Positions 7,745 to 48,264 of a DNA stretch of 64,000 nt are shown here, piece after piece. Source of the stretch: Moniliella sp. 'wahieum' (taxonomy: Eukaryota; Basidiomycota; Moniliellomycetes; Moniliellales; Moniliellaceae); NCBI GenBank assembly GCA_003971905.1, contig RSEE01000001.1:1697036-1761035 (forward strand). The letters run 5' to 3'. Position 1 is the first letter of the stretch. Each line of letters starts with the position of its first letter. The position numbers were made by a program, and so were the translations under genes. The notes under the pieces are model-generated. The model searched no databases, was not told where the DNA came from, and saw nothing but the letters and a program-made list of their open reading frames with translations.

Positions 7745-10700
7745 GAACTCGCGGCAGCCCTGTCACAGGGGTTGCCACCACCCACCACTGCGTCTGCGCT
7801 CCACAAGCTGGTAGTTGACAGCGGCGCGACGCCGAGCATGGTCCGCTCGCCCGAGGGTTTCATTTTCCTCGAGCCTGCGACTGGGTGGGTTGAGTTGGCT
7901 GGCGCGTCCAGGAAGCTTGCGGTGACAGGCTGTGGGGTGAAGCGGGTTCGACTCCCGGCTTCCACAGTCCAAACTGAATGCATCCTTGACTTGTACTGCT
8001 TGCTTGTCCCCCAGTTAGACCATGACTTACTCTCTGTACCGCAGGCAAATGCCGCTGGTCATCGAGTAGAGTTCCTTGCACACCGCCAAGGCGCTGTTAT
8101 CCATAGCGATCCCGCAATTGTTGCTCGCTACGACCGTATCGCTAATGGCTATGTGGTTGATTACCACTGCGACGTCCCCAACGTCCCCATTCAAGCCCAC
8201 GCCCGTGCCGCCGTGGCCGACTATACCCGGATACTGGCTGCTCATGCCCGCCATGGTCATGTTGGTTGGCGCCAGCTTCCCCGCCTCACGGCCACGGGGC
8301 CAGTTGCGCAACGCATCACTTCCACCCAGGCCCATGCAGCCGAGGCCGACGCGGCCTGCGTTTGTCAGGCGTGCGCGGCGGGGCGGGGCACCCGACGCCC
8401 GTTCCCTGAGAGCCACACGGCACGTGCAGCTGCCCCACTGGCGCACTTGCATGCCGATCTAGTGACAGATTGGCCGACGGGGCTGAAGGGTGAGCGCAAT
8501 TTACTTGTCGTAGTCGACGACTGCACCGGCTATCTCTGGGCCATTCCGCTGGTGCGCAAGAGCGACGCTGCAATGGCACTAGCCAACTTAATTCTCCTCG
8601 AGGAGCGCCGCCTCCTCGCCCGCCACGGCGCCAGTCTTTTCCGTCTCCACACCGATGGCGGTACTGAGTTTTCCCGTGTCCCGCACCTCCTCACTGCTGC
8701 CGGTCATGCACCGATCCAGCACACCACCACCACCCCCTACACCTCCCAGCAGAATGGCCACGCCGAGCGCGCCGCTCGCACTATACAGGAGCGTACCCGC
8801 GTCCTCCTCGCCGGCGCCCGCGCACCGTCTCAGTACTGGGCCGACGCCGCTGTCGCGGCAGCTTTGTATGCCAACGTTAGTGTGTCGGCCGCATTGGGCG
8901 CCCCCTCACCATTTGAACGCTATCACGACCGCCCCCTCCCACGCAGCTCTTATTTTGGGGCACCCTGGGGTGCGGCCGGCTGGTGTACTTTGTTAGGTCC
9001 CGAGCGCGGCCACCGCGCCGCCGCGCGCCCGCCCTGGCATGCTAGTCGGATTCGATCCGCTCGGCTCCAAGGGATACGAATTTGAGTTTATCACAGAAGA
9101 CGGCCACAGCTCGTACAGGGCGTGGTGCACCGACGTCATGTGGGATCCCACAAACCCCGGGCTGGCGATACGCCAGGCCCAATCGTTGCCGGGTACGCCA
9201 CCGGATGGGCTTCGCGACCGTCCGGATACACCTGGTGGGGCTGAAGTTTCCACATCTGGTGGGGCTGAAGTTTCCACACCTGGTGGGGCTGAAGTTTCCA
9301 CGCCTGGTGGGGCTGAAGCTGCCCCCCGTCGCAATCCGGCTCGGGCGCGTCCCCCCTGATTTCTATCAACCCAAGGATGCGCATGCGCCTCCCTTGACGG
9401 ATGAGCCGCCAGCCGAGCTTGATCCCGATTGGAGCCCAACGGGCCATGCGCGCACCGCGCGTCATCCCCCTTTGTCCCACCCAATCCCCCCTACTATTAC
9501 TGTTTCTTCCCCTGATCCTGCCACCGCATCCCTTACACCAAGCCCGAAAAAGAAAGCCATTCCCCGCCGGCAACGCCGTTTCGCATCCCTCCCCCGACTG
9601 TCGGCACCACTGCTGACGGTGTGCCCCTTGCCCCTCGGACCGAGCGTGAAGCAATGGCCACCTCTGAGTGGCCCCAGTGGCGCCAGGCCGAACACATTGA
9701 GCTTGACGGGCTCAGATCCATGGATGCCTTTGAAGAAGTGCCACGCCCTCCGGCCGGAACGAAGATCTTGGGTGCCCGCACCGTCTACAGTGTTGGCGTC
9801 ACCCCAGAGAATATGTTCCTCAAACGGAAAGCCCGTATTGTGGTTCAAGGAAACCAGGAGGATACAAGTGAGTTGCCCAAGGCCCTCACATTCTCGAGTG
9901 GCGCAGCACATCAGTCTTTTCGCACCGTAGCCGTGGGAGGTAAAGCGCAAGGCCTCCAGGCATATTATTTTGACTGCAAGAGTGCATATCTCCATGCACC
10001 CATTCCCTATGAGGTATACGTTAAGCCTCCCGATCGTTTTCTCACCGACAAAGCAAACGTTTGGCGACTCAAGAAGTCCCTCTATGGCCTTGCAGCCTCC
10101 GGCGCTGCGTGGCACCGCCACCTCGCCAGCAAGCTACGAGATATTGGTTTCCGCTCGACGGTAACAGAACAGGACGTATGGATACGCAAACGAGCGAATA
10201 CGACCATCATGCTCGCAATATACTGTGATGACGGAATGGCCATGGCCCCGTCCCAAGCTGCTTTTGACGCATTCATGGACGAACTCGGTCTCAACATCAA
10301 GATTGGCGACAAGGGTCCTCTCAGTAAGATGCTGGGTGTGCACTATGTTACTCGCCCTGATGGTTTTGACTGCGACCAGCGTGCATTTCTGTTAGCTTTA
10401 CTCGCCCGCACCGACATGCTCGAGTGCAACCCTGTTCGTTTGCCTATCAATCCTGATACACCTCTCCCGCCACGTCCACCAGACGAAGCTCCTGCCACTG
10501 TCGCCGAGCATAAGCGCTATATGTCGATTGTGCAGAGCCTCAGCTGGGCCGCGCAGACCTGCCGGCCCGACCTGTCATTTGTCGTACATCTTCTCAGTCG
10601 TTGGAACAAGGATCCCTCTGCTGCACACCGCAGCGCCGCACAACATGTCCTGCGCTACCTCCGTGGTACATTGGATTGGTCTCTGCGTCTCAGGATCAAT

Positions 10701-11246
10701 CGAACGGCACCTCCTATTGCCGTATTTACCGATAGCGATTGGGGCGGCGACAAGGTCACACGCAAGTCGGTAACAGGGGTCGCTGTGTTTGTTTTTGGCG
10801 CCCTAGTGCACTGGCGCAGCGCCCAGCAGACCACTACGGCAATGTCGACCGCTGAAGCTGAGATGATGGCTATTAGAGAGGGCGCCCGCGACGCTCTCCG
10901 CATTCGTAACCTCATGGTCGAGCTTCAACTAGTACCTTCCAACTGTCCGGTGGATCTCTATAGCGACTCGGCTGTTGCCCTGTCAATTATCTCTCGCCCT
11001 GGTTTCATTGGACGCCTTCGTCATATGGACATTCGCAACCATTGGTTCCGCGAGCATGTCGATTCGGGGCGCATTTTGTGGCACAAGGTTCTTGGAACCG
11101 AGAACCCCGCGAATGATTTTACCAAGCTCCTACCGTATACGGTTCAACGCTCCAGTGTAGGTCGCTACCTCACGCTCACGCCGGATCCTGGTGGGGCTGA
11201 GGAGACTTCCCGCATCAAGCCCATTTTCGGCTCAGATTCCTCCTAG
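7745..11246 (+). CDS. Copia Pol: protease, integrase, reverse transcriptase, RNase H
   Basis: Protease: aspartyl active site VVDSGATPS near 7813. A GAG-pre-integrase segment (HARHGHVGWRQLPRL) precedes the integrase core with its D, D, E residues in HLHADLV, LHTDGGTEF and NGHAERAARTI (about 8440-8790). A copia-type GKLD-like region follows (GMLVGFDPLGSKGYEFEF). Reverse transcriptase occupies the frame from about 9621, with AYYFDCKSAYLHAPI and the catalytic box IYCDDGM, where Cys replaces the usual Val. RNase H shows FTDSDWGGD, STAEAEMMAI and the YSDSAVALSI box; stop at 11244-11246. Frames change near 9000 and 9400. A 24-bp unit is repeated about four times at 9232-9321 between integrase and reverse transcriptase. 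Confidence 0.88.
9232..9321 (+). repeat. 24-bp tandem repeat in pol carrying GGTGGGGCTG
   Basis: Four consecutive units (the last partial) encode a PGGAEVST-type repeat. Each contains the decamer GGTGGGGCTG that also forms the polypurine tract/LTR junction at 11305-11314. Confidence 0.9.
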
Positions 11247-42205: not shown

Positions 42206-43733
42206 TTAGGCGGAAGGAAGAGCCAGCTCAGCTTGGGCCACCTTTGTTGCGGAAGGGTCGATTGCACCAGACGCCTCTTTGGCAGGTTCCACCGCGACCA
42301 GAGGGGCCAAAGGCGAGGAGGGCAAGACCCAGACCTTGACTGTCCCATCATCGGCACATGTGGCCAGCATGTCGGATGCCTGCACCGTACCCGATCCCGG
42401 CAGCATTGTCTCGTCCTCCTCCGATTCATCCTCCAACCGGCCCGCCAAACCGGCTGCTTTCCTCTTGTTTGCCGCCACATCCGGCCCCCACGTAACACAG
42501 TTGACATCCGACAGACCATGAGCGGCCGGGACGCGAGCGAGGGCCGTCACAGTGGGCACGACCGATTTGGCCAGATCCGCGCCTCCGTCTGAGCAAAAGA
42601 GGCAACAAAAACAAAGAAAACAAACAGATGGAAACCCAAGTGAAGTGTGTCAGATCCCGCCCTTGTGCACCCAGAGCGTCTCTCGGTACTTACCACTTGG
42701 TACACCACGATATTGCCGTCAGAGCCGGTCGAAGCAAGGAGACCCCTATCTTTGCTACCCAGATGCCCGGTCGAGCTCCACGAAACCGAGAGGATGGCAC
42801 GGGTGTGCCAGCCGCGGAGGACGTTGGTGCACTGCCAGCGTTGGTTGGATGGCAACCCTTGGAGCTGGGCTTGATGCTCGGTGAGTCGGCGCCAAATGCG
42901 CACAGTGCGGTCATCGAGGCAGATGCGAGAAAAGTGCCGTCAGGGGAGAAGGAGAGGGACCAGACTGTAGACGTGTGTCCAACCAAGGTCTGGACAACAA
43001 ACCAATCGTCACTAGGATCATCCGCATACAACTTGATCGTGTCATCGTAGCTTGCCGAAGCCAAGAGCTCTTCGCGCGGATGCCAGGCGACGGCTTTGAC
43101 ATCTTGCGAGTGCTCCATCAAGACCGACAAACATCAAACTCCGAGTCCGGCTGAGTCTCCCACACCCACACACTCTTGTCCCGCGAACAGGACGCCAGCA
43201 GCGTTCCATCATGAGAAAATGCCACGCCTTTCACTTCACTATCGTGTCCCTCCAACGTGCCAATACACTCCCATTCGCCCAGGCCCGTCGCATGGCTCCG
43301 CTCCGTCTCCCCTTCCTCGTACTCTTCCAGCGGCTCCCACACGCCAATCGTTGAATCAAACGAAGCAGTGGCCAATACCTGGCCATCGGGCGTCCAGGCC
43401 AGCGCACGTACCGTCCGCCATGGCCCGTGTCGAGGGTAGTCTGCGTTTGGAACACCGCACCTGCGCCTGTCCCGTTCTGCATGCGGTAGCGATGCAGGCG
43501 CACATTCTTATCCGCCGAGCACGAGGCCAAAATGGGCTCGACTGGGTTCCACGCCAGGCCCCAGGCGCGGTCCAGATGGCCTGGCCGAATGCGTCGCGTC
43601 AGTCACTGGTCGCCGCGCGGCACGCGCGCGCACAGAGGGGAAGGGAGGCAGGCGCCAACGTACCTTCCAGCTCGGCGAGGAGGACGAGGCGCGGGAGAGG
43701 GTCGGTTGGTGCTTGCTTGTGCGCAGCGATCAT
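42206..43733 (-). CDS. CIA1: Cytosolic iron-sulfur assembly factor Cia1 (CIAO1), WD40 protein
   Basis: Starts at ATG 43733-43731 ([20 protein letters not shown]); intron 43663-43581; exon 2 continues [22 protein letters not shown] repeats are visible: [44 protein letters not shown] then [31 protein letters not shown] then [39 protein letters not shown], and a last blade [14 protein letters not shown] further intron separates VYQV from [10 protein letters not shown] (about 42698-42591). Frame changes fall near 43430, 43130 and 42915. Cia1 is the seven-bladed docking scaffold of the CIA targeting complex, which delivers Fe-S clusters to cytosolic and nuclear apoproteins. A Glu/Asp-rich insert (DESEEDE) sits in the last blades. 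Confidence 0.92.
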
Positions 43734-43971: not shown

Positions 43972-45688
43972 ATGGCGTCCCGCTCCCTCGCCCCGCTCCT
44001 CTTGCCACTGGCGCGGACGGGGGCGCGGACGGCCCCCGTGCTCCCTGCGCCCATCTGCCTTGGGCGGCCCGCCGGCCGACGCGGCCGGTCGGCTGCGCAT
44101 CGCCGGCGCTCCCCACGCCTCGCGCCGCTGCCTCTCCACGTCGCCAAGCGTGTGCTGGTTGTGGGTCTGGGTCGGTTCCTGTGGATGTGGTGGCGGAACG
44201 CCTCTGCCGTACGACCCGACTCCAGCACTGGACGCCCAAGGCGCCATCCCCATCATGCCCTACGACCAAGCGCCCCTCCCGGCCTCTGCCCCCGAATACA
44301 AGGCCACATTATCATCCATCCCTCTTCGCGCCCACGGCCGGTCAACTCGTGGCCGTCGACATTGGAGAGTATCTCCCCGCTTGTCTCGGAACTTTCTTCT
44401 CGGTCCAAAGCGGGTGGGTCGCTGGAAGGGTACGGAATTAGCTTTGCCGATGGCGAGCTGTCCTACCCCGGCGCTCCGCGCAGCGATCCCTGGTTCACCA
44501 TCGTCTTTCCCTGACTGGGACCCTCATCGCAACAAACTGCTGCGTCCCCTTCCCGGTGATGTGGGCGAGCGAGAAGAGTTTCTATGCATATTTACACACC
44601 GGGCAAGATGGCCACGCTTGGGCCCCTCTCCCTCGACACGGTCGACGAGGGTGCTCCCTTGGCCGAGCGTATCGTCAGCGCCCTTGCATCGGTCCCGGTC
44701 CAGACGGCCCGTTCCAATCCAGGGACAAGGCGCACATTTATGTTTGCGCGCACGGGATGCGCGACTGTCGCTGTGGCGTTGTGGGAGGCACGTTGATTGA
44801 CACGTTGCGCAAGTCGTTTTACGAGGAAAATCTGCGCGCAGAAGGCAAGTTGAAAGACACGCGCATCTACGCCATCTCCCACATTGGCGGACACAAGTGG
44901 GCGGCGAATGGGTTGGTGTACCCGCACGGCGACTGGTACGGCAACTTGCGCCCTATGGATGCTGGCCTGCTGTTGCGCGCCGCTCAAGCCCCATCAACTT
45001 CCCGCTACGACTTGTCGGATGAGCGGGAAAAAATGGTGCATTGGCCTCGCTGGCGTGGCCGCTTGGGTCTGGACCAGAAAGAAATGTCCAACTGTATGAG
45101 ATTTGGGGGCCACCGCTCACCCTCGCTGCCACGTTGACTCCCGCTCGGCGAGTTAAGAGGGCCTCGCCTCTGCCTCTCCGTCTGAGGCAGAGAAAAACGC
45201 CACGTCCGAGGCAGAGGCAAACGCCAAAGCAGCCACGGCGCCTCTGGAACCCGTCCCTTCTGCCGAGGAGCAGACTGCTACGGCAACGACGAGCACCAGC
45301 GCCCAAGAGGAGCCGTCGGTCACATTGAGTTCCGCTCCTTTGACGGGACGTGGTTTGATGTTCCGGCGCAACTAGGGAGAAGTGATGCAGGTGGCGAAGC
45401 GGAATGCGTTGCCTTCGATCGAGGCCACCTGCGGCGGGCAACTGGAGTGTGCAACGTGCCATGCTACCTTGCGCAACCACTGACTGGCCCACGGCGCGCG
45501 CGGGGGAGAGTGACACGACGACCGTCGCCGGAGGAGGCGGTGTGCCACCGCCATCGGAGGCCGAGGAGGACATGCTGGACTATGCCATGGGCCGAGAAGC
45601 GGCGTCGCGGCTGACGTGCCAGCTGACGGTGACGCCCCCTTGGTGAAGTGGATGCGGAAGGCGGGCGATCCAGCTGCCGCGGTTCTGA
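43972..45688 (+). CDS. Aim32/Apd1-type Fe-S protein running into an adrenodoxin-like ferredoxin domain
   Basis: The N-terminus (MASRSLAPLLLPLARTGAR) is Arg/Ser-rich without acids, like a mitochondrial presequence. The Aim32/Apd1 (sucrase/ferredoxin-like) part has GGSLEGYGISFADGELSYPG, KAHIYVCAHGMRDCRCG (Cys-x8-Cys) and ISHIGGHKWAANGLVYPHGD (His-x3-His), the 2Fe-2S ligand pattern of the family. After an Ala/Glu linker (SEAEANAKAATAPLEP, about 45170-45300) comes HIEFRSFDGTWFDVPAQLG, SIEATCGGQLECATCHATL (Cys-x5-Cys-x2-Cys), SEAEEDMLDYAMGREAASRL, a fourth Cys in LTCQL, and IQLPRF before TGA 45686-45688: a complete adrenodoxin-type ferredoxin. Several frame changes occur, including one between the parts. 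No stop-start arrangement or promoter is evident between them, so fusion is inferred. Confidence 0.8.

Positions 45689-46354: not shown

Positions 46355-48264
<1,910 letters not shown>

Follow-up and report, generated by a model that had tools for sequence, protein, structure and literature searches.

The proteins closest to the one described here belong to the Aim32/Apd1 family (Suc_Fer, PF06999), whose yeast members Aim32 and Apd1 are mitochondrial and cytosolic, respectively. According to excerpts of the papers cited here and below, the family binds its cluster through the ligand motif C-X8-C-X24-75-H-X-G-G-H (PMC11138216). Yeast Apd1 is described as having two ferredoxin-like domains, of which the first (FD1) lacks a metal site and the second (FD2) carries the cluster, and a Trp at its very end is important for how the cytosolic assembly system matures it (excerpt of PMC11126956). 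For yeast Aim32, Zhang et al. proposed a role in redox homeostasis in the matrix and the intermembrane space (excerpt of PMC8482512). The other point of reference is a fused mitochondrial ferredoxin, etp1 of Schizosaccharomyces pombe. Its fusion partner is, we presume, Cox15. The excerpt of PMC7140478 gives the partner as Arh1. A search of titles and the starts of abstracts, with the primary Apd1/Aim32 paper outside its scope, returned no report of an Aim32-type domain fused to a ferredoxin; such an architecture may already be catalogued in domain databases.

We analysed a window of 64,000 nucleotides from Moniliella sp. 'wahieum' (contig RSEE01000001.1, positions 1,697,036 to 1,761,035). Its + strand encodes, in this order, a start containing Arg but no acidic residues, a Suc_Fer domain and, beyond a stretch rich in Ala and Glu, an adrenodoxin-like ferredoxin in pieces. 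A second, collinear copy lies on contig C76 of the same genome, with 95% identity over the 4.6 kb searched, and is most simply the other haplotype. Both copies have the same domain order and both are broken in frame, partly at different places. Our main reading, to which we give a probability of roughly 0.57 from the sequence, is that of one gene encoding a putative mitochondrial two-cluster carrier, made of an Aim32-type protein, a flexible acidic linker and an adrenodoxin-type ferredoxin, the breaks being errors of an unpolished assembly. The initial annotation had placed all of these parts on one strand within 1.7 kb. Their order and strand were retained (43972-45688, +), but no single reading frame covers this interval of the window and the domains, which lie in different frames, had to be pieced together. 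The parts are the following:

43972..45688, + strand: whole Aim32-type/ferredoxin gene region, from the ATG to the stop after IQLPRF; frame broken several times in the assembly
43972..44140, + strand: presequence-like N-terminus; in C76 the initial 28 codons include four for Arg and none for an acidic residue
44150..44714, + strand: N-terminal part of Suc_Fer, at the place of FD1; covered in C76 by a 278-codon open frame (L017:3935-4768)
44715..45091, + strand: FD2, predicted bis-His thioredoxin-like [2Fe-2S] domain; PF06999 match, ligand codons and alignment to the genome's own Apd1-type protein
about 45120..45330, + strand: linker rich in Ala, Glu, Ser and Thr; in C76 open in the frame of both neighbours, without in-frame ATG
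45316..45372, + strand: strands 1-2 of the ferredoxin, read as FRSFDGTWFDVPAQLG in the window (frame 45186-45611) and as SVTLSFRSFDG in C76
45376..45480, + strand: ferredoxin cluster loop C-x5-C-x2-C (CGGQLECATC); PF00111 at 20.0 bits, PDB matches
45545..45688, + strand: acidic helix of the ferredoxin, with its fourth Cys (EEDMLDYA..SRLTCQL, 45545-45637), then IQLPRF and the stop; TIGR02007 match, C76 piece compared with etp1

The Suc_Fer domain was identified without difficulty. The open frame 44442-45134 matched PF06999 with 84.7 bits and the C76 copy with 84.9 bits, for a cut-off of 34.9 bits. This single frame contains the Cys-x8-Cys and His-x3-His pairs that had been attributed to the Aim32/Apd1 family, in the form C-X8-C-X35-HIGGH (cysteines encoded at 44745 and 44772, histidines at 44880 and 44892), with a WRGRLGL stretch further 3'. 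Between FD2 and the Apd1-type protein encoded elsewhere in this genome the identity is 36%, and a PDB search with the FD2 frame returned nothing up to an E-value of 10. We infer that FD2 carries a 2Cys-2His [2Fe-2S] cluster. At the place of FD1, C76 has a long open frame, yet without a Pfam match. The initial annotation ascribed a single thioredoxin-like Fe-S module to Aim32 and Apd1, which agrees with the excerpt of PMC11126956 for the cluster but not for the fold, since Apd1 has two ferredoxin-like domains. The N-terminus does resemble a presequence, as had been noted: the 28 residues of C76 contain Arg but neither Asp nor Glu, and an RRCLSTS stretch lies further on. It is a putative mitochondrial targeting signal.

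The ferredoxin was recovered in pieces. The three cysteines of the cluster loop (codons at 45430, 45448 and 45457) lie in the open frame 45376-45480 and are also found in C76. This 35-residue piece scored just under the 21-bit cut-off of PF00111, and its best PDB matches included 3hui (2.7e-7, the best of all) and ferredoxin VI (3.6e-6). The fourth cysteine (codon at 45617) lies in another frame, 45386-45643, in which the NCBIfam model TIGR02007 matched positions 45551-45634 with an E-value of 8.1e-4, below the model cut-off. The corresponding C-terminal piece of C76 matched etp1 (1.6e-5), the adrenodoxin-like protein 2y5c (5.8e-5) and the ferredoxin-2 8rmc (7.5e-5). A Pfam scan of longer, mixed frames gave no ferredoxin family, and the locus was not listed by the PF00111 search of the genome. 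The description of a full four-cysteine ferredoxin ending in IQLPRF therefore holds for the four cysteines and for the end (the stop closes at 45688), but the frames are split and the third and fourth cysteines are some 51 residues apart. This spacing, 157 bases in the window and 152 in C76, or about 51-52 residues, is approximate, with a frame break in between; it falls outside the 35-37 residues of adrenodoxin-type ferredoxins. An intron accounting for the extra residues was considered and rejected, as inspection by eye revealed no GT-AG pair common to both copies.

Other Fe-S proteins are encoded in this genome. PF06999 matched five stretches at four places, namely the two copies of the fused gene (C1, the contig of the window, and C76) and two of an Apd1-type gene, one each on C16 and C92. 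The C16 copy of the latter (L001, C16:887037-887810) has a 395-codon open frame that closes with GWVSAW and the stop, the last residue being Trp as in yeast Apd1; the C-terminal residue of the fused protein is Phe. A separate, intact Yah1 is encoded at C1:1276522-1276800 (TIGR02007, 4.4e-24, below the model cut-off), with a spacing of 36 residues between the third and fourth cysteines. Its best PDB matches were etp1 and the mitochondrial adrenodoxin homolog 2mjd, which we take to be from fission yeast and baker's yeast, respectively. The C-terminal tail after the LP motif matters for the work of a ferredoxin in the ISC pathway. This tail reads LPSATRNMYVDGARAGHGH in the Yah1 of this genome and is missing in the fused protein, which ends with LPRF and the stop. 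Because a separate Yah1 is encoded, as is an Apd1-type gene, the fused ferredoxin would be an additional one and not the Fe-S assembly ferredoxin. Matches to NDUFS1, the 75-kDa subunit of complex I, were found at five places (L008, L009, L011, L013 and L014), as two near-identical pairs and a fifth place 90% identical to one of them, which may mean that larger segments of the genome have been duplicated. The best PDB matches of the 75-kDa subunit were 7zm7 and 6gcs, presumably the fungal structures from Chaetomium and Yarrowia. Together with the Yah1 matches these suggest a fungus; an algal origin was rejected, as the light-harvesting family PF00504 had no match in the genome, and an 18-base rRNA pattern searched with no mismatch allowed was absent.

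The surroundings of the gene were also annotated. A CIAO1/Cia1-like WD40 gene (42690-43733, - strand) is arranged divergently from the fused gene, with 238 bases between the two ATGs; its first PDB match with an individually significant stretch was CIAO1 itself (3fm0, 4.9e-41). An Fe-S assembly factor and the fused Fe-S protein may therefore share a promoter. Downstream lies an ARF GTPase gene (46700-47080, + strand) of which the genome seems to hold many copies: over roughly the same interval, nine further places share 84-88% of its DNA sequence and another two share 69%. Pieces of a Ty1/copia-like retroelement occupy 7745-11243 (+ strand), with a reverse transcriptase (RVT_2) over the cut-off and an integrase core below it. 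An Rfam scan of the window gave no match at gathering scores.

To compare the two copies, substitutions were counted in gap-free codons, with frames assigned by family evidence or by the open frame, in nine of ten stretches, the linker being treated apart. In the assigned frames there were 14 synonymous and five nonsynonymous substitutions, when about 25% are expected to be synonymous (P = 1.2e-5); in the frames shifted by one or two bases the corresponding counts were 2:16 and 1:17. The values were 1:2 in FD2 and 1:0 in its tail. The folded parts, taken together, behave as coding sequence, with small counts in each part. In a MAFFT alignment of 6.4 kb the copies differed by 183 mismatches and 79 indels, 57 of which were of a single base. 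The gene as a whole had 21 indels in 1717 bases (12.2 per kb), distributed as 10 in 759 bases of the N-terminal part (13.2 per kb), two in 370 bases of FD2, two in 230 bases of the linker and the remainder in the ferredoxin; the 3' flank had 21 in 1012 bases (20.8 per kb). Control coding stretches were affected too. In the same alignment we counted eight indels in 1173 bases of the CIAO1-like region and two in 380 bases of the ARF exon; by blastn there were 15 gap openings in 1188 bases of the Apd1-type gene, six and five in 800 bases for the two NDUFS1 pairs, and two in 800 bases for the 90%-identical NDUFS1 copy. Since indels between copies also strike these stretches, assembly errors are the simplest cause of the frame breaks, and as conserved genes of this assembly are broken as well, no special decay is needed to explain the gene as a whole.

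The case for a single protein depends on the stretch between the two domains, and here two other explanations must be weighed. The window frame 44442-45134 runs through FD2 on to LDQKEMSN. The C76 frame L017:3343-3927 shares with it, from SRYDLSDE onwards, 30 identical residues in phase, and then continues with LYEIWG, the linker and SVTLSFRSFDGTWFDVPAQLGE. As these overlapping frames tile in phase, FD2, the linker and ferredoxin strand 1 lie in one frame once the private indels are set aside. The Ala/Glu linker proposed by the initial annotation was located, and the stop that would have separated the domains at 45140-45300 was sought: in the C76 frame none follows FD2, and the sequence is open from the Suc_Fer C-terminus into the ferredoxin, whereas the window frame does end at 45134. 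The same stretch would be seen if a complete Aim32-type gene were followed on the same strand by a separate ferredoxin gene, across a short spacer open by chance. The openness of the linker is a weak argument against this, because stop-free runs of 125 codons occur at 10% of the window positions. The linker also showed four nonsynonymous and no synonymous substitutions, compatible with linker disorder but also with a spacer that is noncoding, and a model of codon usage trained on seven stretches gave its expected frame a score of about zero, higher than for the other two forward frames but equalled by one reverse frame, while FD2 and both ferredoxin pieces were positive only in the expected frame or best there. 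A GTATGAG stretch near 45094, a possible 5' splice site, counts against the fusion as well. Yet a separate ferredoxin gene would need a start, and in C76 the 77 codons ahead of strand 1 contain no ATG in frame, the nearest being at 78 codons, inside the FD2 tail. Moreover, the stretch after FD2 remains coding-like (both of its substitutions are synonymous) and only about 200 bases separate the domains. Two adjacent genes are thus improbable. The alternative that the ferredoxin is the decaying remnant of an earlier fusion, disrupted in each copy, has nearly the same low probability. The 358 bases of the ferredoxin hold seven indels (19.6 per kb), a rate close to that of the 3' flank; like the N-terminal part, the ferredoxin exceeds all control coding stretches (2.5-12.6 per kb), which slightly lowers our confidence in the main reading and raises the odds of decay. 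It also has 27 mismatches, against four in the 370 bases of FD2, although many of them fall together in a single GC-rich segment where the alignment slips. The frame changes in both copies near 45373-45385 and within 45480-45545, but the first break differs between them. Decayed ferredoxins do exist in this genome: Yah1-like pieces on C78 (L025) and C74 (L028) have lost cluster residues or frame, and blastn in default mode did not match the one on C78 to the C1 gene. Against decay of the fused domain, all four cysteine codons are kept in both copies and the clean substitutions of the ferredoxin core are all synonymous (4:0, compared with 0:3 in each of the shifted frames). The proposed two-domain fusion is therefore favoured by the open frame of C76 and by the substitutions on both sides of the linker, though not by those within it, and we consider with good confidence that FD2 and the ferredoxin are a single protein.

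The fusion suggests a mechanism. In adrenodoxin the acidic helix, here EEDMLD, serves the contact with the reductase. After import, an Arh1-type ferredoxin reductase of the matrix would reduce the fused ferredoxin through this helix, and the tethered ferredoxin would hand electrons one at a time to the cluster of FD2, in which the His ligands would permit proton-coupled transfer. FD2 might then reduce or monitor thiol groups on target proteins, a role that has been put forward for yeast Aim32. Tentatively, the fused ferredoxin could be a dedicated donor of the Aim32-type domain, such that mitochondrial thiol quality control by Aim32 would be driven by NAD(P)H via a reductase and an adrenodoxin-type ferredoxin, with both clusters in one molecule. 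Only slightly less likely than this, though itself rather unlikely, is that the ferredoxin of this same protein acts independently of FD2 and that the tether does no more than secure import together or equal amounts, a reading to which etp1 is open as well. In its favour, the linker has low complexity and considerable length, and etp1 offers a precedent for a mitochondrial ferredoxin fusion (excerpt of PMC7140478), but a free Yah1 is already present and a second independent ferredoxin would need a task of its own. The sequence would read the same for a donor tether and for a joint-import tether.

Viral contig scans gave no relative, and a plasmid search returned six records at 29-35% identity. 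The scan of prokaryote contigs gave one, a Suc_Fer protein of a planctomycete metagenome-assembled genome (MAG; L032/L033), 51% identical over part of FD2. Its gene (L032, 2650-3291) adjoins genes that resemble those for an ABC transporter and a substrate-binding protein. Unlike the fused protein, it is a single-domain protein of 213 residues without a ferredoxin motif. Among 392 genomes sampled from its phylum, the MAG included, 43 matched PF06999, six of them over the cut-off; in these six loci the HXGGH motif was found in three (L033, L034 and L035), none of which had the ferredoxin cysteine motif.

The fused protein thus combines traits of several known systems. Like yeast Aim32 and Apd1 it has the C-X8-C and HXGGH ligands, and like the mitochondrial member of PF06999 it has a presequence-like start. 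Unlike these yeast proteins, which have one cluster each (excerpts of PMC8482512 and PMC11126956), it adds a C-terminal adrenodoxin-type ferredoxin. Its cluster loop is most similar to those of ferredoxin VI (1e9m), 3hui, terpredoxin and putidaredoxin. These four are free-standing bacterial ferredoxins that, like the fused protein, end soon after the LP motif. The C-terminal piece of the fused protein is instead closer to etp1 and FDX2-type chains. As a natural fusion of an Aim32-type protein with a ferredoxin, it hints that electrons might reach Aim32 from an adrenodoxin-type ferredoxin and, by extension, from the reductase of the latter. A counterpart in architecture is etp1 (ferredoxin domain solved as 2wlb), the best PDB match of its C-terminal piece, in which a mitochondrial adrenodoxin-type ferredoxin is also fused to another protein; here, however, the partner is an Aim32-type domain.
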